Part shown: one piece after another, positions 11,277 to 30,458 of the stretch | Position numbering within the stretch: position 1 is the stretch's first letter | How the letters are laid out: every line of letters starts with the position of its first letter | Source: a virus | Length of the DNA: 32,882 nucleotides | Direction: 5' to 3' (one strand) | IMG/VR virus record: IMGVR_UViG_3300013093_000149 | Location: 1 to 32,882 of that record | The notes under the pieces: generated by a model | The model's database searches: none | Told to the model about the DNA's origin: nothing | Seen by the model: only the letters and a program-made list of their open reading frames with translations | Made by a program: the position numbers and the translations under genes

Positions 11277-11297
11277 AATCTTTATTTTTATTTAAGT

Positions 11298-11366
11298 TGA
11301 CCCTCATGGATTCTAACCACAGCTAGATGGACCAAAACCACCTGTACTACCGCTATACTAAAGGTC
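11298..11366 (-). tRNA. tRNA-Gln (anticodon TTG)
   Basis: A cloverleaf of 69 nt folds with a GACCTTT/GAGGGTC acceptor stem (with G-T pairs), a short D stem around TAGCGGTA, and an anticodon stem GGTGG/CCATC with loop TTTTGGT, giving TTG. A T stem of mostly wobble pairs carries loop TTAGAAT, where the second invariant C is A. No CCA end is encoded. The odd T loop and short D arm lower confidence slightly. Confidence 0.8.
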
Positions 11367-11473
11367 AAAATCGGACGAGGTTCGGTTGGCCTACCAAACA
11401 AAGTTACTACTTGCTGCACCACGAGTTACACGTGAATGACGGGTGCTTCCACTTTCGCCTCCTCTCATCCTTG

Positions 11474-11576
11474 CAGTCAGAGCTGGACTTGAACCAGCAA
11501 CATGGTCTCGTAAAAAGAAGCATCACCAATTTTGCCTTACCGAGCTTGAGCCCGCTTACATATCCACTACCTGACT
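11474..11576 (-). tRNA. tRNA-like gene, possibly Lys (TTT), with extra sequence
   Basis: The acceptor halves AGTCAGG and TCTGACT pair over 7 bp, and the T arm GCTGG-TTCAAGT-CCAGC is canonical. A D-arm-like segment (GGCAAAATTGGTGATGC) and a possible anticodon loop TTTTTAC (TTT) are present. The total is 103 nt, about 30 nt more than a normal short-variable-arm tRNA, with the extra bases between the acceptor and D arm. D and anticodon stems compete for the same GC. It may be an interrupted, decaying or unusual tRNA. Confidence 0.45.
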
Positions 11577-11944
11577 ATTTGCAACTTTTAGATTACCCTC
11601 AGAGTTGCTAACTGCGCCGTCATACGATACGGAGGGAGTTTCTGTCAATTAGAAGTCCTCGCGAGCACTAACTAATGTTATCCCTGTCTTCGTCGTTCCA
11701 CGTTCGAACGATTATTAGTTTAGGAAAGGAGAAGATGGTTCAGTGGACAACTCCTTTTATGATTGGCGTTACTAACGATGGTTTAAACTCCGATACAGTC
11801 GGCCAATGCTTTTTGAGCGCCACCAACAGGCTAACCTATATCATTCCCCAATCAACCTTAATATTGAAACAAACTATCCACAATTTTTCTAAGTCGCCAT
11901 CCAAGTCATGCTCTGGTTAAACCAGCGGCGGATAGTTGTTTTTG
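11577..11944 (-). other. Structured noncoding stretch between tRNAs
   Basis: About 370 bases without a protein gene. The coding strand can form a series of separate hairpins: AACTATCC/GGATAGTT (11872-11937), enclosing CTGG-TTTAA-CCAG; GATTGG/CCAATC (11761-11853), enclosing CCGA-CTGTA-TCGG; AAAGGAG/CTCCTTT (11725-11757); CTAA(A)CTAAT/ATTAGTTAG (11668-11723), enclosing TCGTTC-GAACGTG-GAACGA; and GCAACT/AGTTGC (11581-11608). Several span tRNA-like lengths but lack normal arms. The number of stems suggests one or more stable small RNAs, comparable to the extra stable RNAs of the T4 tRNA cluster. I see no RNase P RNA, 6S or intron core motifs. The 107 bases at 11367-11473 contain a further GCACC/GGTGC pairing around CACG-TGTAACT-CGTG. 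Confidence 0.4.
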
Positions 11945-12016
11945 TTGCAGGAGAAGGATTCGAACCTCCGACCTATAGGTTATGAGCCTACCGAGCTACC
12001 TCTGCTCTATCCTGCG
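11945..12016 (-). tRNA. Initiator tRNA-Met (CAT)
   Basis: A 72-nt cloverleaf with anticodon loop CTCATAA. Position 1 is C facing A72, the unpaired end that marks bacterial initiator tRNAs, and the D stem GAGC/GCTC gives the initiator-type A11-U24 pair. The D-arm to variable-arm sequence (GGTAGCTCG...GGCTCATAACC...AGGTC) resembles known initiators. Only two of the three G-C pairs usual in the initiator anticodon stem are present (GTAGG/CCTAT). T arm GGAGG-TTCGAAT-CCTTC. No CCA is encoded. Confidence 0.9.
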
Positions 12017-12024
12017 ATATGCGG

Positions 12025-12096
12025 TACTCTTAACGGGAATCGAACCCGTATTACCAGGATGAAAACCTGGTGTCCTAACCGTTAGACGATGAGAGC
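12025..12096 (-). tRNA. tRNA-Glu (TTC)
   Basis: A 72-nt cloverleaf with the typical Glu D arm (TCGTCTAACGGTTAGGAC), anticodon stem CCAGG/CCTGG with loop TTTTCAT giving TTC, and a T arm ACGGG-TTCGATT-CCCGT. The acceptor GCTCTCA/TAAGAGT has one C-A mismatch and a terminal G-T pair. It starts five bases after the epimerase stop, so the tRNAs may be processed from a shared transcript. Confidence 0.92.
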
Positions 12097-12100
12097 TACG

Positions 12101-13108
12101 TTAATTTACTTGTTTGTGTATCCATTCGTAGGTCTTCTTGACTCCTTCGAACAGTGGATAGAAAACGTCTACGCCCATTTTTTCTTTATATAACGTGTTG
12201 TCAGAAGTTCTTCCTCTTACTCCAGTCGGACATTTGTATCCGTACTTATCGATGAACTCTTGACCGTCTATGTTATCGATCTTAATATTTTTTCCCGACA
12301 CTTTAATCGCTAACTGGGCCAATTGATTGATCGATACCATCTCTTCTGATCCTATGTTAACCGGACCGTCGAAGTTGTCCTGTCTCATGAACAATAAGGT
12401 CTTGTCTATGCACTCGTCGATGTACAAAAAAGATCTTGTCTGCTGACCGTCTCCCCATACTTCTATGCTTCCTCCGTCCTGCGTTTCTGCAGCCTTTCTA
12501 CACATTGCTGCTGGTGCTTTCTCTTTGCCTCCTGTCCACGTACCGTAAGGTCCGTATACGTTGTGATACCTTGCGATCCTCACTTCCAAACCGTAATTAC
12601 GACAGAACGCCAAGAACAATCTTTCGCTAAACAATTTTTCCCATCCGTATTCGGAATCAGGATTCGCTGGGTAAGCACTGGATTCTTCGCAATTGGGATT
12701 GTTTACGTCAAGTTGATTGTGTTCTGGATACATGCACGCCGAAGAACTGTAGAATACTCTCTTTACCTTTTGTCTTGCTGCTTCGTAAGCCACATTCAAA
12801 TTAATCAAAGCAGAGTTGTGCATTACGTTAGCATCGTTGTTTCCAGTAAAAATGTACCCAGCTCCACCCATATCGGCAGCTAATTGATATACTTCGTCAA
12901 AGCTCAAAGTCGGTGCGATCATTATGTCCTTAACGAATTTAGGATCTCTTAGGTCTCCTAAAATAAACTCGTCGCACATTTCTTGCTCTGTAAAGTACTC
13001 GTGACGTTTAATGTCTACAGCACGTACGTAGTGTCCTTCCTCTTTCAACCTCTTGGCCAAATGACCTCCTATGAAGCCACCTGCGCCCAAAACTAATACT
13101 TGTTTCAT
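12101..13108 (-). CDS. GDP-mannose 3,5-epimerase
   Basis: A short-chain-dehydrogenase-fold sugar-nucleotide epimerase of 335 residues. The NAD site is GAGGFIGGHL (8-17). Catalytic residues of plant GDP-mannose 3,5-epimerase (Cys145, Tyr174, Lys178, Lys217) fall at Cys125, Tyr154, Lys158 and Lys197 here, all with the same offset of 20. The surrounding blocks (AADMGGAGYIF, SSSACMYPE, RYHNVYGPYGTWTGG, EKAPAAMCRKA, VWGDGQQTRSFLYIDEC) are strongly family-like. The expected reaction converts GDP-D-mannose to GDP-L-galactose (or the 5-epimer GDP-L-gulose). Its ATG overlaps the stop of an HNH gene. It probably feeds the phage glycosyltransferases. Confidence 0.93.
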   Translation of the reverse strand: MKQVLVLGAGGFIGGHLAKRLKEEGHYVRAVDIKRHEYFTEQEMCDEFILGDLRDPKFVKDIMIAPTLSFDEVYQLAADMGGAGYIFTGNNDANVMHNSALINLNVAYEAARQKVKRVFYSSSACMYPEHNQLDVNNPNCEESSAYPANPDSEYGWEKLFSERLFLAFCRNYGLEVRIARYHNVYGPYGTWTGGKEKAPAAMCRKAAETQDGGSIEVWGDGQQTRSFLYIDECIDKTLLFMRQDNFDGPVNIGSEEMVSINQLAQLAIKVSGKNIKIDNIDGQEFIDKYGYKCPTGVRGRTSDNTLYKEKMGVDVFYPLFEGVKKTYEWIHKQVN

Positions 13109-13668
13109 AGCCTTTTATTTGTAGATCTTACTATTGTTATAAATTCTTCTACCTCTTCTTTAGATGAATTAGACTTAAACTGATTCATCATATCACTGAT
13201 AAACTGTATATTACCTTTTATGTATCCTTTAGAAGAATCGATTCTATCTATAGAAGCTTTATAGTTGGAATTTGCTTTACTATATTCTGGAAATTTAGGT
13301 AACACTAGTTTTGATTTAGTGTACACACATTGTCCAAATTGCGCATTCCATATTTCTATGAGATCTTCTAGCGTTATATCATAATTTCCGAATCTTTCAG
13401 GTTTATTTTTCGCTCTATTCTTAATTCTACGTAAAAATTCTTTCATAGATGCTCTAATAAAACCTTCCTCTGTCAATATCTTATTTTCTCCTCCTTTAAA
13501 AGGTTTCGCTACTTTTTTTATATGTTCTATATTTTGCTCTCTTTTACTTGCGCACTTTAAAGAACAATAAAATATAGTTCTACCTTTTTTAATTTGTCTA
13601 TTGTATTCTGGTTTATGGTAGCCAAATTCAATATCACAATTTCCACATTTTAGGTTTACTTTACTCAT
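13105..13668 (-). CDS. HNH-type homing endonuclease with zinc ribbon
   Basis: A 187-residue free-standing nuclease. The N-terminus has a zinc-binding segment (CGNCDIEFGYHK...FYCSLKCASK), and the C-terminal half carries the phage HNH variant around QCVYTKSKLVL...YKASIDRIDSSKGYIKGNIQFIS, in which IDRID-N-Q replaces the HHxDG core. It ends in an ATGA overlap with the epimerase gene and starts just after the promoter-like motif, the same architecture as the HNH gene at 2279. It also lies beside the tmRNA gene, a plausible intron-less homing target. Confidence 0.88.
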   Translation of the reverse strand: MSKVNLKCGNCDIEFGYHKPEYNRQIKKGRTIFYCSLKCASKREQNIEHIKKVAKPFKGGENKILTEEGFIRASMKEFLRRIKNRAKNKPERFGNYDITLEDLIEIWNAQFGQCVYTKSKLVLPKFPEYSKANSNYKASIDRIDSSKGYIKGNIQFISDMMNQFKSNSSKEEVEEFITIVRSTNKRL

Positions 13669-13711: not shown

Positions 13712-14215
13712 TGGAGATGGGGAGGGTCGAACTCCCGTCTTCACAATGAACAATAATACCAACGTCTCACACGCTTAGCTATTCTGTACACAGAAGCAAG
13801 AGTTAATCTGACGTAATAAGCATTCTACTCCCCGCGGTACGGAATTGCATCTTACTTAGCCCTACGTTAGCGGTACGGGTACTTATTCTATCTGATTAGT
13901 AGGGGTCGTACGGTTTTAAGGTACTTTACCACCACTTGATTTTACGACTATCAAGAAAACTTCCCCCTGACCGGATTTTAGGAGCCGTCAGGTTTGCTCC
14001 TTTGTAAACACTTCTGTTCCTAGGTTATATGTGCACCGACCCGATTGCGGACTAGGCTGCTACAGCTAAGTCGGCACCTACGAAAGACATTAAGTCTGCG
14101 AAGGTCATTGTAGATAATTCTACGGTTATTGTTTGTACGTAGTTTAAAGAGATACAGTACTTATCTCTGCGTGTAGTATTACCTCCGAATTGTGAATCAA
14201 TTCCAAAGCATCCCC
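13712..14215 (-). ncRNA. ssrA: tmRNA (transfer-messenger RNA)
   Basis: Rescues stalled ribosomes by acting as tRNA-Ala and as a short message. The ends pair as GGGGATG/CATCTCC with the G3-U70 pair required for alanylation. A canonical T arm (GGGAG-TTCGACC-CTCCC) lies at the 3' end, and TTTGGAATTGATTC follows the 5' acceptor as in other tmRNAs. Pseudoknot PK1 is visible: stem GAGATA/TATCTC (14167-14162 with 14154-14149), whose loop GTAC pairs with GTAC at 14138-14135. About 11 bases later a likely resume codon GTA (14123) opens a tag of about 23 residues ending ADLAVAA, with TAG at 14052-14054. At 504 nt it is longer than most. CCA is not encoded. Confidence 0.88.
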
Positions 14216-14814: not shown

Positions 14815-16209
14815 TTATAAATTTAACCTGCTACCGATCATGAAAGATCTCATTGATGTTGAACCAGTTGTGCTCATCATTGTCTTAAAACTGAAGTTCA
14901 CTTTAAACTTTCTAGTGATCTTAAAGTCCGTACTAAAGCCTGTCAAGAACGTTAGGTCCCTGTTTCTAGTCTGTTGACCCGTATTAGGTGCGTAGGACCA
15001 TGGAGCCGATATCATGAATATGTCCGGGGTTATTATCTTCCTGCCGAACTGTAAGGGATACATGGCGAAGCTGATTATAGAAGGCGATAGATTAAACGAT
15101 CCGCCTTGAACGAACGAGCTGTTAGCGCTCAGGTTGTACCCAGTGATAAGTTTGTCTATTGGCTGAATGTACGTATAGGCAGGGAATACCATGTGATTTT
15201 TGAAGTCGGTGAAATACGTAAGACCGAAATTGTGTAGTGCTTCTAACTGTCCTCTCGAGTTCATTTGATTTTGAGTGTAACTACCTCCTACGGCCACTTT
15301 GCTTAAGTCCAAGAATATCGAAGAGTTAACGCCTATGCTGGACATTCCGGTCATCGAGGACTTGGATATTCCTATGTTCATTGTAGGAACTATCTTTCTA
15401 TTAGGAGCTGTTTCCGCTGCACTCAGATCCGCAGAGAATATCATCGGATTTGTATTCTCCGATTTTTTCTTCTCTTTCTTCTTTTTCTCCTCTTTCTTTT
15501 CTTCTTTCTTTTCTTCTGATTTTGACTCGGATTTTTTCTCTTCTGATTTGGTTTCTGACTTGGATTCGCTCTTTGTTTCAGAAGAGGAACTACTGCTCTT
15601 GTTGTCAGAAGATCCACTCGTAGAAGAGGACGATGAAGACGAAGATGAATTAGAAGAAGATTCTCCGCCTCCACTCGTAGTAGTAGAACTATTAGAAGAA
15701 GAACTTTGATCGCCACCTCCACTCGCTTGGGTCGTAGTGCTAGAACTGCCAGTGGACGGAGCCGCGGTTGGCGCTGCGCTTACGCTTGACGTTGCTGCAC
15801 CGGCGGAACTACTAGCTGCAGAACTTGCAGCAGAAGACGCTGCGGTACTTGCTGCGCTAGATGCAGCCGAAGCCGCGGCAGTTGATGCTGCAGAAGTTGC
15901 CGCTGCAGCAGCTTGTTGTGCTATTACTGTTGTTGCTTGTTGTGATACTGGACACGCTAAAGTAGAATACGATAAGTAAACGCTCTGTAACCATGCTTGT
16001 AACAAACCCAACTGAACTTGTTGTGGAGTAAAGGTTCTAACTTGATCGTAGAAGGATACTACCGCATTTCCGCTTACGTAGGTAGTAGTGGCCACTTTGG
16101 TTTGGCCTGTGCATTTGTCTATGAATGTCTGGGTATAGGTTTGGCCCTTTGCTTTTTCAGCAAACAGGAACGCAACCAATATTAATAGAACTCCCAGCCA
16201 TTTTTTCAT
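14815..16209 (-). CDS. Exported protein: Ala/Ser and Lys/Glu tracts plus outer-membrane-barrel-like domain
   Basis: A 464-residue exported protein. Residues 1-22 are a signal peptide. A folded N-terminal part with two Cys (33, 86) ends near residue 92. Residues 93-150 are almost only Ala/Ser/Thr, 150-210 Ser/Gly/Thr, and 210-252 a KSE/KKEE charged repeat. Residues 255-464 have alternating beta-strand patterns (TMNIGISKSSMTG, GFSTDFKITRKFKVNFSFKT) and end RSFMIGSRLNL, resembling an outer-membrane beta barrel. The linker may cross the periplasm. The start overlaps a tiny basic gene as TAATG. It sits in the exported-protein cluster with a CsgG-like gene. Function unknown. Confidence 0.8.
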   Translation of the reverse strand: MKKWLGVLLILVAFLFAEKAKGQTYTQTFIDKCTGQTKVATTTYVSGNAVVSFYDQVRTFTPQQVQLGLLQAWLQSVYLSYSTLACPVSQQATTVIAQQAAAAATSAASTAAASAASSAASTAASSAASSAASSSAGAATSSVSAAPTAAPSTGSSSTTTQASGGGDQSSSSNSSTTTSGGGESSSNSSSSSSSSSTSGSSDNKSSSSSSETKSESKSETKSEEKKSESKSEEKKEEKKEEKKKKEKKKSENTNPMIFSADLSAAETAPNRKIVPTMNIGISKSSMTGMSSIGVNSSIFLDLSKVAVGGSYTQNQMNSRGQLEALHNFGLTYFTDFKNHMVFPAYTYIQPIDKLITGYNLSANSSFVQGGSFNLSPSIISFAMYPLQFGRKIITPDIFMISAPWSYAPNTGQQTRNRDLTFLTGFSTDFKITRKFKVNFSFKTMMSTTGSTSMRSFMIGSRLNL

Positions 16210-16316
16210 TATTTGTATTTAGCCAATATAGCTAAGTTGTTATTAACTCTCTTTAAAGTCTTAAGTCCCGCTTTGTGACTTCTCATCGGTCTTTTCTTAG
16301 GTGCTGCGTTTGCCAT
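16209..16316 (-). CDS. 35-residue basic protein
   Basis: A short gene between the CsgG-like gene and the barrel-like protein gene. It encodes MANAAPKKRPMRSHKAGL followed by KTLKRVNNNLAILAKYK. It is strongly basic with no membrane segment. Its TAA overlaps the next ATG as TAATG, and it starts four bases after the upstream stop, so the arrangement supports real translation. A nucleic-acid-binding or linker role is possible, but nothing is known. Confidence 0.6.
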   Translation of the reverse strand: MANAAPKKRPMRSHKAGLKTLKRVNNNLAILAKYK

Positions 16317-16319
16317 ATA

Positions 16320-17042
16320 CTAACTTTTGAATATTCCCTTTTTAACCATCCTTAATAAGATTCGAGAACACGCGATGTCTAACGCTTTTTTTGTAGATGT
16401 ACCTATAGTAGATTGATTGAACTTAACTTCGTTTACCGTAGCGTCGCTAATCAAACTTAACTCTCTTGTTGTAGTTGCTTCGCCCAAACCAGAAGCCGCG
16501 AATATTTCTCCGGTCTCTGCGTCAGTGAATCTAACTTGTAAACCCAATCTTGTTACAACCTTGTCTTTCACTCCGTCCTTTAAATTAACTTGTTCATCGT
16601 CGGATACAGAGAAGTCGTACACTTCGATCTCAACAAAGTAGTGAGCCAATCTGATCTTGCCCCTACCGTCCAATTTATCTTGACTGATTCCAGCTTGACT
16701 GGCTTGGAATTGTTTTACCATTCTATTTTTTATCTCTGTCTTGTCTTCTGTAAAAGTGAATCTATTCAAGTTCTCAAGGTATTCCATTGTAATGTTTGCA
16801 ACACCCAGGCCGACTTTCTTTTCTTTCAACTCAGGATACTGCTCGTATACTTCGTCACCGATACCGCATTTCAATATCTGAATAGGAATCGTAGGACCAG
16901 AATAGTCCATGAATTGACTGATGTCCACCTTTGTTTCGAAAGACGCTTTATAGTTTTCGGTCTTAGTTGACCCAATAGTTTGAGAAAAGCTAAATACCGG
17001 TAATAATATTACTAATATTGAGAAAAAAATAAACTGCTTCAT
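16320..17042 (-). CDS. CsgG-like envelope protein
   Basis: A 240-residue exported protein whose body resembles CsgG/HfaB, the outer-membrane curli-type secretion channel subunits. After a signal peptide (1-20, ending FSFSQ) come VGLGVANITMEYLENLNRFTFTEDKTEI and a helix (KNRMVKQFQASQAGI). The later part has strands VEIEVYDFSVS and VVTRLGLQVRFTDAETGEIFAASG, then a C-terminal helix (KKALDIACSRILLRMVKKG). In CsgG these correspond to the alpha/beta periplasmic domain and the strands flanking the barrel. There is no lipobox Cys, unlike classical CsgG. It neighbours lipoproteins and secreted repeat proteins, so export of a fibre or surface protein is possible. Confidence 0.65.
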   Translation of the reverse strand: MKQFIFFSILVILLPVFSFSQTIGSTKTENYKASFETKVDISQFMDYSGPTIPIQILKCGIGDEVYEQYPELKEKKVGLGVANITMEYLENLNRFTFTEDKTEIKNRMVKQFQASQAGISQDKLDGRGKIRLAHYFVEIEVYDFSVSDDEQVNLKDGVKDKVVTRLGLQVRFTDAETGEIFAASGLGEATTTRELSLISDATVNEVKFNQSTIGTSTKKALDIACSRILLRMVKKGIFKS

Positions 17043-17043
17043 A

Positions 17044-17346
17044 TTAGTGTCTTCTATAAGATGGTCTGTAATAAACTCTAGGTCCTACAGGAACAATGAT
17101 TCTTGGAGCAATGAATGGGTAGTACAAACCCCCGTAAATTACAGGAGTTGTTACTACGTTAACGCTTGCTTGAGGTACACTGTAACCTTCGCTTTGTTGA
17201 TAGTACTTTGTCTTGATTTTGATTTGCTTTCCTGTACTGTCGGTAGTAGTTGTTTCTACCACTCTAACTGGAGTGCAGCTGCTCATAAACATAACTAACC
17301 ATAAAAATAAAATAAAGGACGCACAAATTGTAATGATCTTTTTCAT
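17044..17346 (-). CDS. Lipoprotein with Tyr/Pro/Val-rich tail
   Basis: A 100-residue lipoprotein: a signal with lipobox MSSC (Cys24), then a short strand-rich region (VRVVETTTTDSTGKQIKIKTKYYQQ) and a tail rich in Tyr, Pro and Val (GGLYYPFIAPRIIVPVGPRVYYRPSYRRH). The longer frame to 17469 was rejected because it lacks a signal at its start and overlaps the upstream gene. It is adjacent to the CsgG-like gene (two bases apart). Tail composition suggests a surface-exposed, aggregation-prone peptide. Confidence 0.75.
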   Translation of the reverse strand: MKKIITICASFILFLWLVMFMSSCTPVRVVETTTTDSTGKQIKIKTKYYQQSEGYSVPQASVNVVTTPVIYGGLYYPFIAPRIIVPVGPRVYYRPSYRRH

Positions 17347-17347
17347 A

Positions 17348-17563
17348 TTATTTGGTTTTTGGTGATTTGTACCATATATTGTCCGGGCTGTCTTTGAACG
17401 TTGCGTCGAACTTCCATTCGAACTCTGTCGCCATTCTTTGTTCTTTTTCTTCGTCTGTAAAATGGACATAGATCATAAACACTTCAAAAGAAAATGCGAA
17501 TGCTACCCAAGCACAAACGAATACTAAAAATGTTTTACCTAATATATCGATAATTTTTTTCAT
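17348..17563 (-). CDS. Small single-pass membrane protein
   Basis: A 71-residue protein with one transmembrane segment (FLVFVCAWVAFAFSFEVFMIYV, residues 12-34) and a charged C-terminal half (FTDEEKEQRMATEFEWKFDATF). It lies between the holin-like gene and the lipoprotein gene, so a lysis-accessory role is possible. No known family. Confidence 0.65.
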   Translation of the reverse strand: MKKIIDILGKTFLVFVCAWVAFAFSFEVFMIYVHFTDEEKEQRMATEFEWKFDATFKDSPDNIWYKSPKTK

Positions 17564-17591
17564 AGTCTATTTTAAATTTATAGTGGAATAC

Positions 17592-17855
17592 TTATTCCGC
17601 TGTTGGAGGTGCTGGTGTATCTGTTGGTGCTTTCTTGGTGAATTTGTCCAAAGTATCCGCGCCCATTCCTACTGCGGTAATCACCATAACGGCGTTTACT
17701 AATTCTGCAGAAGGTTTGAATCGTTCTTCGGAAAAACTGTTAGCCAACATAGTACCGCATAAAAATAATGCACCAACAAAACCAATTACTGGTTTGATTG
17801 AAGTTGATCCTCTTTCGTCTTTGAAAAGATCAATAAGCCATTCTTTGAAAGTCAT
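17592..17855 (-). CDS. Holin-like membrane protein
   Basis: An 87-residue protein with an amphipathic start (TFKEWLIDLFKDERGSTS) and two hydrophobic segments (PVIGFVGALFLCGTMLAN and AELVNAVMVITAVGMGADTLDKF), ending in a Pro/Thr/Ala tail. This topology and the ADTLDKF region resemble small phage holins of Bacteroidetes phages, which form membrane holes for endolysin release. It is followed by another holin-like gene 26 bases upstream, so the pair may be holin and antiholin. Confidence 0.6.
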   Translation of the reverse strand: MTFKEWLIDLFKDERGSTSIKPVIGFVGALFLCGTMLANSFSEERFKPSAELVNAVMVITAVGMGADTLDKFTKKAPTDTPAPPTAE

Positions 17856-17881
17856 AGTCTTTAATTTTTAGTTTTTATTGT

Positions 17882-18466
17882 TTAGTGGGAATCGTCCCAA
17901 GATTCTTTTAGTAATCCACAGGTTTGGCACTCTAAATGACCGTCGTGATCGCTATCACCCCACACGTGTTGACACTGTCTGTGCTCGTGGTGCTCGAACT
18001 CTAGCTTTTCCATCTCGTGTTGGTGCTTTTGTTGAGCCACAGCCAATTCGTGATCTTGCTTGTTTTCAACTACGGCCAAATCCCTTGCTGCTGAAGCTCC
18101 GGCGATAAACGCGTCTGGAATTAACGGAGTTGGAGGAGTGTTGGTCACCTTCATATCGTTTGTGTTAGAAAGTGTGGTACCGTCTTCCTCGTCCATCTTT
18201 TGAACCAACATTTTGTCTTTGTCCTGATCGCTGAACCAGTAGTCGATGATCTTACCGTAGCTACCGATGAAGGCTCCTAATAATAACATTAGTAACTCTT
18301 TCCATCCAGCGGCCATTGCTGTGTTCATCATGATAGCGGCAAATATACCTGCTATGATTAAAATAAATCCACCTAGAACCATAGCGGTAATATACCATCT
18401 ACGTTTCATTACTGAATTTAATAGGTCTCTAAAACCCGTGTTAGGTTGTTTAACTTCTTCTGCCAT
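17882..18466 (-). CDS. Holin-like two-helix membrane protein with zinc-binding tail
   Basis: A 194-residue protein. Residues 28-50 (ITAMVLGGFILIIAGIFAAIM) and 57-75 (LLMLLLGAFIGSYGKII) are transmembrane helices, followed by DYWFSDQDKDK. The GAFIGSYGKIIDYWF pattern resembles phage holins with a GxxxGxYxxxxxYWFG signature. The C-terminal tail is long, with a His-rich coiled coil (HELAVAQQKHQHEMEKLEFEHHEHR) and a possible zinc site of CQHVWG...HLECQTC. That tail is unusual for a holin. It might regulate opening or bind metal. Confidence 0.65.
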   Translation of the reverse strand: MAEEVKQPNTGFRDLLNSVMKRRWYITAMVLGGFILIIAGIFAAIMMNTAMAAGWKELLMLLLGAFIGSYGKIIDYWFSDQDKDKMLVQKMDEEDGTTLSNTNDMKVTNTPPTPLIPDAFIAGASAARDLAVVENKQDHELAVAQQKHQHEMEKLEFEHHEHRQCQHVWGDSDHDGHLECQTCGLLKESWDDSH

Positions 18467-18469
18467 AAA

Positions 18470-18841
18470 TTACCATTGAGCTGGTTTTTCTTTAAATTCG
18501 TCCCCTTCTTTCTTAGGCTTTGGTTGTTCAGATCTTTCTGCCTTCTTTAAGTCTTTGTCAGCTGGAGCTTTTTCTTTTATAATTACTGTTTTGCTACCCG
18601 CAGCTTGCTGTTGTTGAGCTGGGATATTGATGTTAATGCTTTGCTGAGTTTGAGGTTGAGCTTTAGCATCTGTCTCTTTTGGTTTCTGTAAATAGGTCAT
18701 TAAAAATGCACCACCAGCGGTAACTAAAGTACCGACAGTTCCAATGATTGTTTTCTTCAAACCAGACATTGAGCCATCGTTGTGCTTTTCGTTCTTAGCC
18801 ATTGCTTCGTCAGGCGTTTGTTCTTTTTTTGCTTTTGCCAT
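18470..18841 (-). CDS. Single-pass membrane protein, lysis-cluster
   Basis: A 123-residue protein with a charged N-terminus, one transmembrane segment (KKTIIGTVGTLVTAGGAFLMTYL, residues 29-51), and a long tail rich in Gln/Lys/Pro/Glu (QSININIPAQQQQAAGSKTVIIKEK). No signal peptide, so it is N-in/C-out. It could be an i-spanin-like partner or a membrane anchor, as it lies between two lipoprotein genes and a holin-like gene. I do not recognise a family. Confidence 0.6.
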   Translation of the reverse strand: MAKAKKEQTPDEAMAKNEKHNDGSMSGLKKTIIGTVGTLVTAGGAFLMTYLQKPKETDAKAQPQTQQSININIPAQQQQAAGSKTVIIKEKAPADKDLKKAERSEQPKPKKEGDEFKEKPAQW

Positions 18842-18842
18842 A

Positions 18843-19208
18843 TTATAATTTATTAAAATCTGTTATTGCTAATAATGCACCTTTAGCATCGTATACCGCA
18901 ATTCTATAAGCAGAAGATGGGAAAGCAGAAGTGTACAACTTAAGGATATTGTCTCCTTCTTTAACATCGGCTGTAGATTTGGATACTACGCTATTAGTGA
19001 TATTCAATATTTTGATAGTCACAGTTTGAGCTGTGCTAGTCTTAACGTTCATTGATACTTCGCTGGTTACGAACACAGTCTGTAATTTAATACCAACTGA
19101 GCTACCGATAACCAAATTAGTAGGAGTTTGCACAGAAGCCGTAGACACATCTTTAGTACATCCAGCAAGCAGGATAAACGCAACCGCTATTGTACATAAT
19201 TTATTCAT
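18843..19208 (-). CDS. Lipoprotein with type IX sorting-domain-like fold
   Basis: A 121-residue lipoprotein (lipobox LAGC, Cys16) with one repeat-like beta domain. The C-terminal half (ILNITNSVVSKSTADVKEGDNILKLY, then TSAFPSSAYRIAVYDAKGALLA) follows the plan of type IX secretion C-terminal domains: V.D..G..V......G.N.l.I....l..g.Y.l.v.d..g. It is not long enough to carry a separate cargo. Its neighbour at 19220 has the same pattern, suggesting a duplicated pair. An interaction with host surface proteins or the secretion machinery is a guess. Confidence 0.65.
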   Translation of the reverse strand: MNKLCTIAVAFILLAGCTKDVSTASVQTPTNLVIGSSVGIKLQTVFVTSEVSMNVKTSTAQTVTIKILNITNSVVSKSTADVKEGDNILKLYTSAFPSSAYRIAVYDAKGALLAITDFNKL

Positions 19209-19219
19209 TTTCTATTAGT

Positions 19220-19573
19220 TTAGTTGACAATTAAAGTCGTTTTGACTATTTGGTTCTTTGTGCTGTCCTCTAGCAATAAATATAGGTACTTGCTTTGGAG
19301 AGCTCTGGTATAAATATTTAGCTTATTGGTTCCAATGACGCCCTTGATTATTTCTCTGGTAACCACCTGATTTTCTATGGAGTCCATCATGGTCAACGTG
19401 TAGGTCCCTGCGGATTTTAACGTAAATTGTATCTCTTGTCCGTTGGAAACAGTATTTTGCGCAGCATCAAATACGTTCTTATCCGGCGTTACTTTTTGTA
19501 CGGGCGCAACAGTCTTTGTGCACGATATTATAAAAAGCATACAACACAATATTATAGTTTTCATACATTTCAT
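19220..19573 (-). CDS. Lipoprotein, paralogue-like to the next gene
   Basis: A 117-residue lipoprotein (lipobox IISC, Cys18) with the segment YTLTMMDSIENQVVTREIIKG, then VIGTNKLNIYTRALQSKYLYLLLED and KTTLIVN at the end. This matches the type IX C-terminal-domain-like plan seen at 18843 and is compatible with the sorting-domain ending K-t-I-V-N. The start overlaps the PA14 gene's stop as TAATG. As a small lipoprotein with only this domain, it is unlikely to be a normal type IX cargo. The similarity is by pattern only. Confidence 0.65.
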   Translation of the reverse strand: MKCMKTIILCCMLFIISCTKTVAPVQKVTPDKNVFDAAQNTVSNGQEIQFTLKSAGTYTLTMMDSIENQVVTREIIKGVIGTNKLNIYTRALQSKYLYLLLEDSTKNQIVKTTLIVN

Positions 19574-21183
19574 TAATTTACCGTTATTTTTAATTGGGTC
19601 CCAGATTGATTAACTGCATCTATGGGTGTTATTGTTATTAGACCCAGTACGTTGGTTAATTTTACTAAAGGTTTAAACGATATAACGTATTTGGTCGTGT
19701 TGTCGAGCATCCCAGTGCCGTTTGTGATTAAAGATCCAAAGTTTATGTACTGTCCCTTGTTCGTAGAAAAATTATTAGAGTTATTGACAGTGGTGAAAGT
19801 CGCGCTTTGATACTGCAATATCGAACTATCGTAATTCAAGTGATATTGAGTTCCTACCACTGCCTGCTGTAAAGGATCTAGGGTTATGGTAGCGTAAACA
19901 CTGTCGCCTATCAACTGGGTCACTATCGAAGATTGAATCTTATTCGATACCGGTGACTCAAGGGAAAACGTTGCTACTCCTGCAGTTTGTTTGGTAGAGT
20001 AACTAAGTTTAGCGTCCCCTAACCATATAGTGGCCACGTAGAAAGTATCGTTAAGTTTTCCACTCGGTAAAGTGAAAGGTACTAACGATCTTGTTCCACT
20101 GTAAGCGCTCCAATTGGTGTGATTGATACTATCGTAAGTAGATTGATTGTACAGCTTTAGCATGTTGGGTAAAGTAGACACTAAGGATTTTTTGCCGGTC
20201 AAATGTTGTAAAAGTAAGTAGCAATCGGTTTCGTCAAATTGCCCATCGTTGTTTACGTCAGCGGCTATATATTGAGCAGCAGAGGTAAAGTAATTACCAG
20301 CAGTGTTTCCTAGTAGCCCTTTGTTAGAATATTCCTGAAACGCTAGATACACATTCGACACGGTTATGATACCATTGTATAAGGAAGTTAAATTGGTTGT
20401 GGTCGTTAGTCCCAAAGCTTCGGCCTTATTTTTGGTAGTATCCACGCTAGTACTTACGTCCACAGTATCGCTAGTGCTAATCGCAGTTGCAGTATTGTTT
20501 GGAGTTAAAGTGTAAGCGTTATTAGCGTAAGTGTAGATATTAGTGCTAAAATTGGTCGGTGTTATTAATGTGTTAAAATTGAAATTAAACTGGACTTTCA
20601 ATTGTTGTGTTACTGTAGGTTGCGTAGAATAGAGTTCGTCTGCTTGTACTGCGTAAGAAGATTGAGAAGGTCTTTTCCAAGTTAAATACATTCCCCATCC
20701 TCCGCCGGTTTGTTGCATTCTGGCCACAAAAGTGTACGATTGACCAGCGACTAAATTAATAGATCCATAACGATATCCTGAAAATCCGTGAGGACCGTAC
20801 TCCGAAGTAACCACAGCTCCGTTCAAAGAGAAGTCAACTCCATCGTCTCCGTCTATTGCGAAGGAATAAGTTCCGGTCTCTTTTGGAATAAAGTAACCAT
20901 AGGATTTGATTCCGAAATAAGCGCCACCGTTAGGGACTCCAGTAAAAAAAGTTTGACTAAAGTATATTGCGTTGCTTGCAGTCGTAACTCCGGATTTGTA
21001 TATTGTAGTACCATTTGCGGTATTAAACATATTGTTAAAATCCGTAGCGCTGTTAGCGTAAACGTTCGCACCACCATTGTAAGTTGCAATGTTGTATATC
21101 GTATAATTCAAATAGCCTACTCCCGATTGAGAGTAAGCTATTGAAGAAATTAATAATAAGAATGCAACTATTAAGGATTTCAT
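19573..21183 (-). CDS. Secreted PA14 / dockerin-like / cohesin-like protein
   Basis: A 536-residue exported protein. Residues 1-19 are a signal peptide. Residues 22-190 form a PA14-like domain, with the diagnostic DGDDGVDFSLNG at 111-122 and WGMYLTWKRP near 163-172; such domains often bind carbohydrates. Residues 266-330 resemble a dockerin: VSNVYLAF, then AADVNNDGQFDETDCYLLLQHL with a calcium-loop pattern D-N-N-D-G-x-x-D. Residues 416-536 are cohesin-like beta structure (ATITLDPLQQAVVGTQYHLNYDS). No lipobox. Cohesin and dockerin parts normally pair, so this protein could self-assemble. It is adjacent to a paralogue. Confidence 0.72.
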   Translation of the reverse strand: MKSLIVAFLLLISSIAYSQSGVGYLNYTIYNIATYNGGANVYANSATDFNNMFNTANGTTIYKSGVTTASNAIYFSQTFFTGVPNGGAYFGIKSYGYFIPKETGTYSFAIDGDDGVDFSLNGAVVTSEYGPHGFSGYRYGSINLVAGQSYTFVARMQQTGGGWGMYLTWKRPSQSSYAVQADELYSTQPTVTQQLKVQFNFNFNTLITPTNFSTNIYTYANNAYTLTPNNTATAISTSDTVDVSTSVDTTKNKAEALGLTTTTNLTSLYNGIITVSNVYLAFQEYSNKGLLGNTAGNYFTSAAQYIAADVNNDGQFDETDCYLLLQHLTGKKSLVSTLPNMLKLYNQSTYDSINHTNWSAYSGTRSLVPFTLPSGKLNDTFYVATIWLGDAKLSYSTKQTAGVATFSLESPVSNKIQSSIVTQLIGDSVYATITLDPLQQAVVGTQYHLNYDSSILQYQSATFTTVNNSNNFSTNKGQYINFGSLITNGTGMLDNTTKYVISFKPLVKLTNVLGLITITPIDAVNQSGTQLKITVN

Positions 21184-22814
21184 TATTCTACTGTTAGCTT
21201 AACTTTGTTACCGCTACCGTCTACCGCATCGGCCAACACTGTAAAGAACAATCCAGTTGCGTCAGTCAATGGAACAGTAGGTGTAAAAATTAATGTGTAA
21301 GGAACTCCAACTTTAATTCTAGCAGTTTTAATTTGATCTATAGAACCAAAAGTCAATCTACCGTTATTGTGCGTAGAGAAGTTAGTGATATCGTTTCCTG
21401 CGTCGAATACTACGTTCGATAAGCTTAACTTAGTGCTATCGTATTGTAATATAACTTGCAATCCTGCCAAACCAGCTTGAGTTAAAGTTCCAGTCAAAAT
21501 AACTTTACCGTTAGTTATAGTAGAAGATAAATTCAACGAAGCATCAGTTATAGTTGGAGCCGCTGTGTTTACGGAGAAAGAAGATATTTTATCAGCGCTA
21601 TTAACTGACATGCCTGCAACCGATCCTGGTATTAAAGAAGGATCCGTTGAGTGAGAGAAGTTTAAGTCTCCACCGTAAGCGTAAGCTAAAGTATCGATTT
21701 GATTAATTGAGTTGATGGTGAATGTGTGATCTGACAAAGATCCTGCTGCCCAATTATTATACTTTCCTGACATGAAACTCATTGCAGTAGCCGTTGACGA
21801 TGGGATTCTTGCTTTTGAACTTACGTCTATGCCCATTACGTAAGCAAATAAATAATACGCATCGTTGCTGTCAAACGTAGAATCCTGAATACCAACGTGA
21901 CCGATTATCTTCTGTAAAGTAGGGTAAGTAAAATAGTTGTTAGTTCCGGTCAACCCAACTTCAGAAACACCCAAGAAAGCTTTGTAAGCGTTGGATACTG
22001 TTACGATATTGTCCAAGTAAGGTTTACCAAAAGACGGAGTAACGTAGACTGCAAATTTTTGACCCACTTTTAAAGTCGTAAACGTAGCAATACCTTGAGC
22101 GTTAAACTTAGTTTGCGCAATTGGAGGATTGCTCCAATCGGTAGTTCCATCGGTTTTAAGACCCATTATCTGGGCGTTCAAGTTTGTGATAGTTGTGTCC
22201 CCTTGTGGAAACGCTATAGCAACTTTATAAGACGACGTGTTTCCTATTACGTTAGAAGTAGGAATAGTAAAATCCAACACTTGAGATCCTATGTTTGCGA
22301 TTGCTTTACCTGCAGAATCGGTAGCATTTGATAGATCAAGCTTGTGAATATATGTGTAGTCTTTCTGATCTAATAAAATGTATTTTTGAGAAGCTATCAA
22401 CCCTGAAATTGGTGCGTCGGTTCTTTGTACAGTTAACTGACCAATATTCCAGCTATTGTTTGCTGCGTAATTCCATGGAGTGTGTTGGAACTGTCCGTAC
22501 AAATCTCCTACGCCTATAGTTGGGTAAGAACTAAATTGATAGTTGTTCCAGCTCGTATAGTAAGTTTGAGAAGAAGTACCTTGAGAAAATACTGTACTAT
22601 TAGGAACGTACTGTAACGCACCGTTATTGTATTGGTATCTCAACCAAAAATAACGAGGTGTTGTCCCAGAGTTAGTAACCGTATAGCTGATGGTCAAAGT
22701 ATCTCCTACGTGATAAGGAGGCTGTTGAACTATCGCCTGGTTAATAGTTATGTTTTGAGAAAAAGAACAAAGGGATATCAAAAGTATCCCTAAAAATAAT
22801 ACAATTTTTTTCAT
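21183..22814 (-). CDS. Secreted cohesin-like / dockerin-like protein
   Basis: A 543-residue exported protein with a signal peptide (1-20). Residues 22-130 look like an immunoglobulin-type or CARDB-like domain (PPYHVGDTLTISYTVTNSG). Residues 265-330 (LDNIVTVSNAYKAFLGV ... DSTFDSNDAYYLFAYV) match the dockerin-like part of the 19573 gene, though the calcium loop is more degenerate. Residues 425-543 are cohesin-like (GTLTQAGLAGLQVILQYDS). The two proteins share the C-terminal plan but have different N-terminal domains. The stop/start overlap (TAATG) supports co-expression. Role probably extracellular adhesion or matrix. Confidence 0.72.
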   Translation of the reverse strand: MKKIVLFLGILLISLCSFSQNITINQAIVQQPPYHVGDTLTISYTVTNSGTTPRYFWLRYQYNNGALQYVPNSTVFSQGTSSQTYYTSWNNYQFSSYPTIGVGDLYGQFQHTPWNYAANNSWNIGQLTVQRTDAPISGLIASQKYILLDQKDYTYIHKLDLSNATDSAGKAIANIGSQVLDFTIPTSNVIGNTSSYKVAIAFPQGDTTITNLNAQIMGLKTDGTTDWSNPPIAQTKFNAQGIATFTTLKVGQKFAVYVTPSFGKPYLDNIVTVSNAYKAFLGVSEVGLTGTNNYFTYPTLQKIIGHVGIQDSTFDSNDAYYLFAYVMGIDVSSKARIPSSTATAMSFMSGKYNNWAAGSLSDHTFTINSINQIDTLAYAYGGDLNFSHSTDPSLIPGSVAGMSVNSADKISSFSVNTAAPTITDASLNLSSTITNGKVILTGTLTQAGLAGLQVILQYDSTKLSLSNVVFDAGNDITNFSTHNNGRLTFGSIDQIKTARIKVGVPYTLIFTPTVPLTDATGLFFTVLADAVDGSGNKVKLTVE

Positions 22815-22817
22815 AGT

Positions 22818-23303
22818 TTAAAGTAGTTTAGACACAACCTGAACGCATGTTTTTTTAATTGCGTTTCTCATAACGGTTGAGTTAAACTCTCCAGACTCTG
22901 AAATCAATAACGTAGATGTGGATATTTCAGAAGACTCGTCGGTCACCAACTCCTTTTTAACAACCTTTCCTTGCTTGTCGATTAATTTACCAAGCATTCT
23001 AATAACCACCGCGTTTTCGTCCTTGTGGAATATGGCTACATTGGAAGCAGTCTTTTGCTGGTCCATGTATACGATCTCCACGTCGACAAAAAGATCCGCG
23101 TCTTGTTTGTTAACTAGTGTGTAACCTTTGTCCTGTAAAACCTCTTGAATAATATTTTTGACCCCGAATGTCAGGTTTAAATTCCCGGTCATTGGGCCCA
23201 TTTTAACGCTGTTTCTAACAGTGTTTACCGAAATCTTAGACTTTGCCTCTTGGGATAAAACAAAAAGAGGACATATCAATAGTAATAACGTTAATAACTT
23301 CAT
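22818..23303 (-). CDS. Exported protein with CsgG-like fold
   Basis: A 161-residue exported protein: signal peptide to residue 18 (FVLSQ), then helices and strands (VKNIIQEVLQDKGYTLVNKQDADLFVDVEIVYM; VVIRMLGKLIDKQGKVVKKELV) and a C-terminal helix (MRNAIKKTCVQVVSKLL). The order of an alpha/beta unit, two long strands and a helix parallels the CsgG-like gene at 16320, including a polar STSTLL loop before the last helix. It is smaller than typical CsgG and lacks a lipobox. It follows a TATATTTATA motif by about 42 bases and opens the exported-protein cluster. Confidence 0.55.
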   Translation of the reverse strand: MKLLTLLLLICPLFVLSQEAKSKISVNTVRNSVKMGPMTGNLNLTFGVKNIIQEVLQDKGYTLVNKQDADLFVDVEIVYMDQQKTASNVAIFHKDENAVVIRMLGKLIDKQGKVVKKELVTDESSEISTSTLLISESGEFNSTVMRNAIKKTCVQVVSKLL

Positions 23304-27428: not shown

Positions 27429-28070
27429 TTATTTTTTTGGTGGTAGATAACTCCAAATAAAGCCTTTAGATTTATTATTTCTTTTTATTGAGTTAACTAT
27501 TGCAGAAGAGTGTATTTTATAATGAGTGGCGGCTTCTTTTAATGTTTTCCATTCTTTAATTAGTTCTAAATTTTCAGAATATTGATATATTTTTCTAGAA
27601 TGTGAATTATTAGAACCTCTTCGTCTTTCCGCCTGATCTTCTGTTAATTTCCATTTTTTACCAAAATTATGATGGAGAGATCCATATTTACCATAATTAT
27701 TATTTTTTTCTCCTTTTGTAGATTCACTTATTTTTAATCTGACCTCTTGCCTTTTAGACCAATGATTTTCTTTTTTTGATAAGTGGTGGTCTTTTATTTT
27801 TTTTCTTGTTTCTTCCGATTGAGAATATCCTTTAAAGTTGAAATTTTGCAATCTTAGACTAATAGCTTTACAAGCTTCAAAATCCCCTTGCTTAAAATGA
27901 ATATCAAAATGCTCTTTTATAGATACTGTGATTAGATTCTCTATTTGATTATTATTTTTATTTCCATCTATGTGATGTATATCATAGCTTCTACCATCAG
28001 AATCTATAGGTATTTCTCCAAAATGATCCGTCCATATTTTTCTATAATTTTTTGTATACCCTTTTGACAT
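27429..28070 (-). CDS. HNH homing endonuclease with NUMOD3 and NUMOD1-like parts
   Basis: A 213-residue homing endonuclease starting at MSKGYTKNYRKIW. The HNH module (YDIHHIDGNKNNNQIENL ... HFDIHF) lies at residues 26-56. It is followed by NUMOD3-type repeats (EETRKKIKDHH, LKISESTKGEK) and a C-terminal NUMOD1-like segment (YQYSENLELIKEWKTLKEAATHYKIHSSAI), a DNA-binding helix-turn-helix. The gene is more A/T-rich than its neighbours. The start at 28070 follows a leader with strong secondary structure, so translation or termination may be controlled. Confidence 0.93.
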   Translation of the reverse strand: MSKGYTKNYRKIWTDHFGEIPIDSDGRSYDIHHIDGNKNNNQIENLITVSIKEHFDIHFKQGDFEACKAISLRLQNFNFKGYSQSEETRKKIKDHHLSKKENHWSKRQEVRLKISESTKGEKNNNYGKYGSLHHNFGKKWKLTEDQAERRRGSNNSHSRKIYQYSENLELIKEWKTLKEAATHYKIHSSAIVNSIKRNNKSKGFIWSYLPPKK

Positions 28071-28081
28071 AAAAAAGAAAA

Positions 28082-28162
28082 GGTCCAAAAAACAAAGGAG
28101 CTACTACCTTCCTAAGTTTAAAGGACCAATAAGTTTATTAGATATATCTTGTAGTAGAAGAT
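28082..28162 (-). promoter_or_regulatory. Structured leader with pseudoknot and possible terminator
   Basis: On the coding strand, hairpin ATCTT-CTACTAC-AAGAT (28162-28146) has a 7-base loop that is fully complementary to GTAGTAG at 28107-28101, which would form an H-type pseudoknot. Between and around these, GGTCC (28127-28123) pairs with GGACC (28086-28082), and TTTTCTTTTTT follows, like an intrinsic terminator. This lies between the thymidylate-synthase-like gene and the HNH gene. The arrangement suggests an attenuator or a ligand- or protein-responsive leader. No known riboswitch consensus was recognised. Confidence 0.45.
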
Positions 28163-29305: not shown

Positions 29306-29733
29306 TATATACCTGTTGATCCGAATCCACCTGCTCCTCGCTCTGTGTCTCTTTGAGGCAATTCTGGTAATACGTGTACGTCCATATAACTTACTGGAAC
29401 TAACACGAATTGGGTTAATTTTTGACCAGCTTTGATTTCTGTTGCAGCGTTAGACGTGTTGATTAAGTGTAAGTGAATTTCTCCTTCGTAATCTTCGTCC
29501 ACTACGCATGCTCCAACAGAAAGTCCTTGCTTAACTGCAACGCCCGATTTGTTGAATGCGATTAAAGCGTAACCCGAAGGTACGTGAGCTCTGATACCCG
29601 ATGGAATTAATACCGATTCGTTTGGTTTCAACACAACTCCTGCGTAATCCTCTGGTACGTAGAAGTCCAAACCTGCTGATTGGCTCGTGCCTCTACTTGG
29701 TGTTTTTACGTTTCTTACTTTCTGAATGTTCAT
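29305..29733 (-). CDS. dut: dUTPase
   Basis: A 142-residue deoxyuridine triphosphatase. All five motifs are visible: AGLDFYVPED, NKSGVAVKQGLSVGA, VVDEDYEGEIHLHLIN, GQKLTQFVLVP and RGAGGFGSTG. The enzyme converts dUTP to dUMP, which keeps uracil out of DNA and feeds dTMP synthesis. The start at 29733 is preferred to the ATG three codons earlier because it overlaps the stop of the GIY-YIG gene as ATGA, but either is possible. The C-terminal motif is complete. Confidence 0.95.
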   Translation of the reverse strand: MNIQKVRNVKTPSRGTSQSAGLDFYVPEDYAGVVLKPNESVLIPSGIRAHVPSGYALIAFNKSGVAVKQGLSVGACVVDEDYEGEIHLHLINTSNAATEIKAGQKLTQFVLVPVSYMDVHVLPELPQRDTERGAGGFGSTGI

Positions 29734-30458
29734 TCTGTACATTGTTTTTGTAGTTTACAGTTTTCGAAATGGTATCTTTTCATTACTGGATACCCTCCTA
29801 TTTTTTTACAATAAGGACATTCTACTTTTACTTTCTCTTTTTTCAATTTTTGTTTAGTCTCTTCTGGCATTATAGCGCCTTTACGAGATTGAGAAAGTTT
29901 CATTTTGTGTTCCTTAGAAAAACCATTACTATAAACCGCTTTTAAGCTTTTTGATAAATTTTGTTTTTGCTCTTCATTTCTTTTTTTACCTATTAATTTA
30001 GAGACTCTTTTTTCTACAGTTTGTTTACTTTGTTTTTTTCCTTTGTGAGCTACGCTTAGTTTTTCTATCATATCTTCGGAATATTTAAGTCCTTTATTCC
30101 ATGAAGAGTATTTTCCTTTTTTTAAATCATTAGCTTTTTTAAAATTAGATAGCACTTCATTAATTCTATCTTCAGACATCCACATTTTCCAATTGCCGCC
30201 TTTACCTCCTGAAGATACATTATAGCAATTTTCTTTTAAGAGATTTTTATAATATTCTACCCAATAAATTTCTCTTTGGCACAATTTTTCAAAAGTATCA
30301 CAGTATTCCAAAATGTCTTTTTTGAAATTATGCTTACCGTATTTTTTGATTGCGCTCTTTATCACAGATCCACTTCCAAGATAATTTTCATCGTCTTTTG
30401 TGGACATCCCTATATAAACTTTAGAATTTACTAAGCAAGTAGTTTTGTAAATGTACAT
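29730..30458 (-). CDS. GIY-YIG homing endonuclease with C-terminal zinc finger
   Basis: A 242-residue free-standing nuclease. The GIY-YIG module is at residues 2-70 (YIYKTTCLVNSKVYIGMS; LGSGSVIKSAIKKYG), followed by lysine-rich NUMOD3 repeats (EDMIEKLSVAHKGKKQS, EEQKQNLSKSLK). The last 25 residues form a zinc finger (CPYC...HFENCK) that also ends the HNH protein at 32255. It is inserted exactly between the promoter-motif site and the dUTPase start, with an ATGA overlap, like the other endonuclease genes here. Confidence 0.94.
   Translation of the reverse strand: MYIYKTTCLVNSKVYIGMSTKDDENYLGSGSVIKSAIKKYGKHNFKKDILEYCDTFEKLCQREIYWVEYYKNLLKENCYNVSSGGKGGNWKMWMSEDRINEVLSNFKKANDLKKGKYSSWNKGLKYSEDMIEKLSVAHKGKKQSKQTVEKRVSKLIGKKRNEEQKQNLSKSLKAVYSNGFSKEHKMKLSQSRKGAIMPEETKQKLKKEKVKVECPYCKKIGGYPVMKRYHFENCKLQKQCTE

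Follow-up and report, generated by a model that had tools for sequence, protein, structure and literature searches.

The virus record IMGVR_UViG_3300013093_000149 of IMG/VR, analyzed here as one stretch of 32,882 nucleotides (the window), carries a genuine one-piece tmRNA gene, and the peptide tag that it encodes, VELSTMTFADLMSFVGADLAVAA, belongs to a family of long tags that is conserved as protein in at least two deep phage clades. That phages carry tmRNA is already known; the conservation of the long tag as protein is the main point. We consider it reasonably probable that this is the tmRNA of a T4-like phage that uses the SmpB and the alanyl-tRNA synthetase of its host, and that its tag places a host-type degron after a virus-specific helix, which acts as a second signal.

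A preliminary description had read a complete tmRNA fold at this locus, including the G3-U70 alanine identity pair, the T arm, and the PK1 pseudoknot, but left out the strand, which is minus. The Rfam tmRNA model RF00023 matches this strand from position 14215 to 13709 with 62.4 bits (E 2.7e-22), above the curated gathering score of 47, and all the parts named are present in the sequence (Table 1). The tRNA-like domain carries G3-U70 and the T arm, the Rfam alignment places PK1 upstream of the resume codon, and an open tag frame runs to a hydrophobic, Ala-rich end, DLAVAA, followed by TAG. Of the searches with tmRNA models that the description had suggested, the covariance search agreed, whereas ARAGORN, run on the window, made no call. 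Most of the relatives are called by ARAGORN as tmRNA with a homologous tag, independently of our pattern search.

Table 1. Features of the tmRNA locus in the window, and ClpP-like genes in related records (positions as in the record named)
Feature	Positions	Strand	Basis
tmRNA gene, mature RNA to discriminator base A; encoded tail CGA, not CCA	13712..14215	-	RF00023 and sequence
Acceptor stem, 5' strand GGGGATG, including G3 of the G3-U70 alanine identity pair	14209..14215	-	sequence, relatives
Acceptor stem, 3' strand CATCTCC	13713..13719	-	sequence, relatives
T arm GGGAG-TTCGACC-CTCCC	13720..13736	-	T stem covariation in relatives
PK1 pseudoknot: stem 1 AGAGATA/TATCTCT, stem 2 GTAC/GTAC	14135..14168	-	Rfam alignment
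Resume-signal heptamer AATAACC	14124..14130	-	aligned position across distinct relatives
Tag frame: resume codon GTA, 23 codons (VELSTMTFADLMSFVGADLAVAA), stop TAG	14052..14123	-	sequence, relatives
Probable pseudoknot GGAGC/GCTCC with CCTGAC/GTCAGG	13964..14000	-	inspection of sequence only
Probable pseudoknot CTTGAT/ATCAAG with GTCGTA/TACGAC	13905..13955	-	inspection of sequence only
tRNA genes Gln, Met, Glu near the tmRNA	11296..12096	-	
Phage ClpP-like protease near long-tag tmRNA	G079 81397-81900; G091 32436-32939; G085 145179-145682; G041 29636-30040		

The length of 504 nt, as first described, is correct to the discriminator base and is long relative to the median of 386 nt (range 358-531) for 114 distinct related tmRNAs. 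Extra sequence 3' of the tag accounts for this, and inspection suggests two pseudoknots there. The 3' end is encoded as ACGA, so CCA would need to be added. In the relatives, G3-U70 is present in 113 of the 114, and the outer acceptor pairs and the T stem pairs vary with compensation, those of the T stem among GC, AT, CG, and TA; the search required at least six acceptor and four T pairs, which predetermines in part how many pairs are seen, but not which types of pair they are. Several relatives have homologous PK1 pseudoknots, for which an automated shuffle test gave weak results. In E. coli the resume-signal heptamer is AATAGTC. Alignment to the relatives sets the resume codon of the window at GTA, in a common register in which AATANN[CT] directly precedes it. 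In relatives with tags of the VELST/EELSS type, the start called by ARAGORN precedes this one by a single codon (Asp, Ala, or Gly), which is missing from the window.

The tag, initially estimated at about 23 residues, has exactly 23, and the Ala-rich, degron-like end noted at the same time is kept in 97 distinct DNA versions, most relatives ending in YA[VL]AA and the window in LAVAA. In IMG/VR, the pattern AD[LF]AVAA-stop matched 58 viral stretches, the majority of which encode this long tag, and the wider pattern F-x-[GS]-A-D-x-A-x-A-A-stop found at least 119 stretches that have it. We define these genes as class A, with tags of 23-25 residues that follow S[TS]x-T[FWY][ED]D[ALV]M[SA]F[VIM]GAD[YLF]A[VLI]AA; 154 loci reduce to 97 different DNA versions of the tag, which encode 63 peptides. 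The window tag fits the class, with Ala at position 9 replacing Glu/Asp, as in 4 of the 97 distinct versions. One viral contig (L004) with a short, alphaproteobacterial-looking tag, ANDNADLAVAA, is a chance match to the narrower pattern.

Selection acts on the class A peptide. In codons 1-12, those not fixed by the search pattern, variation among the 97 distinct DNAs is 0.20, 0.17, and 0.43 at codon positions 1, 2, and 3 (Mann-Whitney p 7e-4, a guide only because related sequences are counted as separate), compared with approximately 0.65 in the upstream flank. A second long tag, class B (ANKTANFDFANNVINMAFANAPVALAA and similar, 27 residues, 20 loci), found in structural-protein relatives of the window, is likewise constrained at the codon level, with values of 0.26, 0.32, and 0.44 (p 0.007). 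In principle, RNA structure in the tag region could conserve the sequence instead of the peptide, and an internal hairpin, ACCT..AGAC-TTAAT-GTCT..AGGT, is visible around CTTAAT in the window. We regard this origin as very improbable, since the third codon positions vary freely, including swaps of Ala, Ser, and Leu codons, and exceed the first and second in variation. What the peptide holds constant resembles a capped helix: position 7 is T or S in 97/97 versions and position 10 is D in 92/97, forming a capping box flanked by hydrophobic residues at 6 and 11. An AlphaFold model places a helix at residues 8-22, although this prediction is weak, its input being one short sequence with nine residues from outside the tag.

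The tags of bacterial hosts are different. In Bacteroidota, tmRNA is present in 141 of 148 genomes, and ARAGORN gives a tag length of 9-10 residues for 74 of 76 sampled, the two exceptions looking like miscalls. The host-type tag GE.NYALAA gave at least 120 matches in genome contigs, nearly all from Bacteroidota, while a pattern nearly identical to that of class A gave none in the genome contigs of 84,980 bacterial and archaeal species. With its 23 residues and LAVAA end, the window tag falls outside the Bacteroidota host type (9-10 residues ending in YALAA, YAMAA, or RLAA). The ssrA gene is a frequent integration site, and the phage gene might accordingly be a decayed or hitchhiking host copy left by integration into the host gene. 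We give this origin almost no credence, since the gene is complete, its relatives retain the alanine identity pair, and the host species surveyed gave no match to the tag pattern; for the family, conservation refutes it.

The window also encodes a virion structural protein, thymidylate synthase, and other phage genes, in agreement with the phage origin assigned at the outset. It contains homing-endonuclease-like genes as well (2279-2950, 13105-13668, 27429-28088, and 29730-30458; HNH with NUMOD3, endonuclease VII-like, and weak GIY-YIG), one of them directly downstream of the tmRNA. In addition, the successive genes at positions 14815-23303 encode secreted or lipoprotein-like products whose signal peptides are of the Bacteroidota style (SQ end or SC lipobox); one of these products has a PA14 domain.

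The PF17289 terminase matched only one record, and hence gp23 was used to relate the phages. Those class A carriers that have a recognised major capsid gene encode a T4-like gp23, in two deep clades. In the first, the nearest cultured phage is Flavobacterium phage immuto (52%); in the second, the nearest is an uncultured huge phage (40%), followed by the Prevotella Lak phages (33%). Between the clades gp23 is only about 20% identical, yet the tags are up to 22/23 identical; VELSTMTFEDAMSFVGADYAIAA (G084) and VELSTMTFEDAMSFVGADYAVAA (G072), for example, come from different clades and differ in one residue. Such near-identity reflects either transfer of the tmRNA or a very tightly held peptide, and the synonymous variation in class A tags indicates that recent copying alone does not account for all of it. 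Because the window fragment is without gp23, its own clade is deduced from neighbours. The virus probably infects Bacteroidota, a host assignment that rests on distant capsid relatives; this fits the Bacteroidota context suspected in the preliminary description, since among cultured phages a Flavobacterium phage has the capsid closest to those of related tag carriers.

No tmRNA match was obtained in Flavobacterium phage immuto or Rhodothermus phage RM378. The tags of the Lak phages and of two huge phages are short. The capsid protein of LR756508, a 484-kb uncultured phage, is 49-57% identical to that of the immuto-side class A carriers. Its tmRNA has a long frame, ...NNADYESAGFTAEDFAQMDGESLYHGSERKPAAV-stop, that ends in AAV rather than AA, and ARAGORN reads a different, short frame in it. 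The class A tag pattern is absent in ten named large phages, and in blastn of the window tmRNA and one relative against named phages only the tRNA-like 3' end matched, never the full length. The tag strings were found in none of the relevant main texts searched. A tblastn search of the tags against phages and plasmids found no match; these negatives carry no weight, as a control query with a putative mycobacteriophage tag of the Bxz1 type (about 25 residues) likewise found none.

As to partners, the preliminary description had raised a matching SmpB gene, and none was found in 40 related phage records, several of them larger than 200 kb. Hence, host SmpB would have to serve. ClpP occurs in 6 of 37 records, and in four of these, two of which are nearly identical, it lies approximately 4-6 kb from the tmRNA, which we treat as a lead only. 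Comparison of neighbourhoods revealed no gene common to all class A carriers, and therefore no dedicated adaptor is visible or named. Upstream of the class A tmRNAs, 28 of 114 relatives have a boxA-like GTTCTTT[AG]A that lies 14-15 nt before the start of the mature RNA (29 if its placement is left free), against a mean of 0.09 in shuffles, and the Bacteroidota-type TAnnTTTG occurs in 13 relatives versus 3.3 in shuffles. Scans upstream of the window tmRNA found no boxA-like leader, TAnnTTTG, or sigma-70-like promoter.

Taken together, these data allow a mechanism to be proposed. If expressed during infection, the tmRNA would presumably be charged by host alanyl-tRNA synthetase by virtue of G3-U70 and bound by host SmpB. 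It would then enter ribosomes stalled on broken mRNA and direct the synthesis of the 23-residue tag. The end of this tag (LAVAA, or YA[VL]AA in most relatives) resembles the host YALAA degron and should direct the product to ClpXP. Either of the roles first proposed, rescue on cleaved host mRNA or re-tagging of proteins, may apply. The preceding 15 or so residues would form the virus-specific, capped amphipathic helix kept by peptide-level selection, and this helix may serve as a second signal, recognized by a host or phage adaptor or protease, that alters the speed or route of degradation. A bolder suggestion, which we make tentatively, is that an adaptor or protease specific to the phage or to infection reads the helix as a second address, through which the phage controls the fate of all ribosome-stalled proteins. 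If so, the phage takes over the fate of stalled proteins, which goes beyond ribosome rescue alone.

The usual explanation of phage tmRNAs is that they add spare capacity for rescue. Applied here, the decay of host mRNA would leave many stalled ribosomes, and the tag would be an ordinary degron whose length provides an unstructured handle for the protease. We consider this unlikely, although worth weighing: the tags end in A[VLI]AA as host tags do, and short tags do occur in phage tmRNAs (LR756511, ANPEFAMAA, 9 residues; LR756500, GNNAEMRMAA, 10 residues; Lactococcus phage AM4, ANTQLAVA, 8 residues). However, the sequence of a mere spacer would be expected to drift, whereas the first and second codon positions show that this one is conserved, and the same short tags, along with those of phage G (13 residues) and an Alcaligenes phage (10 residues), mean that tag length is neither needed by all phages nor a general phage trait.

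A further alternative is that the helix diverts tagged proteins to the membrane, to an aggregate, or to a phage protein partner, or that it is a bioactive peptide and not a protease signal. The three long-tag classes do differ in sequence. Class C (AKTKVSAILAKVKKAANTITEFCLCDEMAPLAIAA, 35 residues, 8 loci) comes from viral contigs, some of them structural-protein relatives of the window (carriers G045 [L140], G044 [L147], and L331-L338), and has two cysteines and a Lys-rich amphipathic stretch, with a helix predicted at residues 5-23 at low confidence; classes A and B share the end M[SA]F..A..A[VL]AA. Nevertheless, the canonical degron end A[LVIM]AA is common to all three classes and would make no sense on a product intended to survive, and we hold this alternative to be improbable. 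Strong peptide-level selection, sharing across phages whose capsid proteins are about 20% identical, and the lack of matches in the approximately 85,000 host species searched argue that the tag itself serves the virus. The question of why phages carry tmRNA thereby becomes directly testable.

Mycoplasma tmRNAs also encode long tags, of about 27 residues; both their sequence and their host differ from those of the class A tag. Among phages, tmRNAs were previously reported in mycobacteriophages Bxz1 and Wildcat and in Bacillus phage G (PMC4131195), in huge phages (PMC7162821), and, in permuted form, in the OM43 phage Melnitz (PMC9004378). In a 2025 tmRNA database, whose viral part derives from RefSeq viruses, the commonest tag length is 10 residues (PMC11915505). 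The earlier phage examples are likewise phage-borne ssrA, but those measured here have short tags, unrelated in sequence to class A. The Bacteroidota host tmRNA, with the tag GENNYALAA and variants, is also a one-piece RNA with the alanine pair and a degron ending in YALAA or YAMAA. In contrast to its tag of 9-10 residues, which the window tag exceeds more than twofold, the phage tags have 23-35 residues and a conserved helix ahead of the degron.
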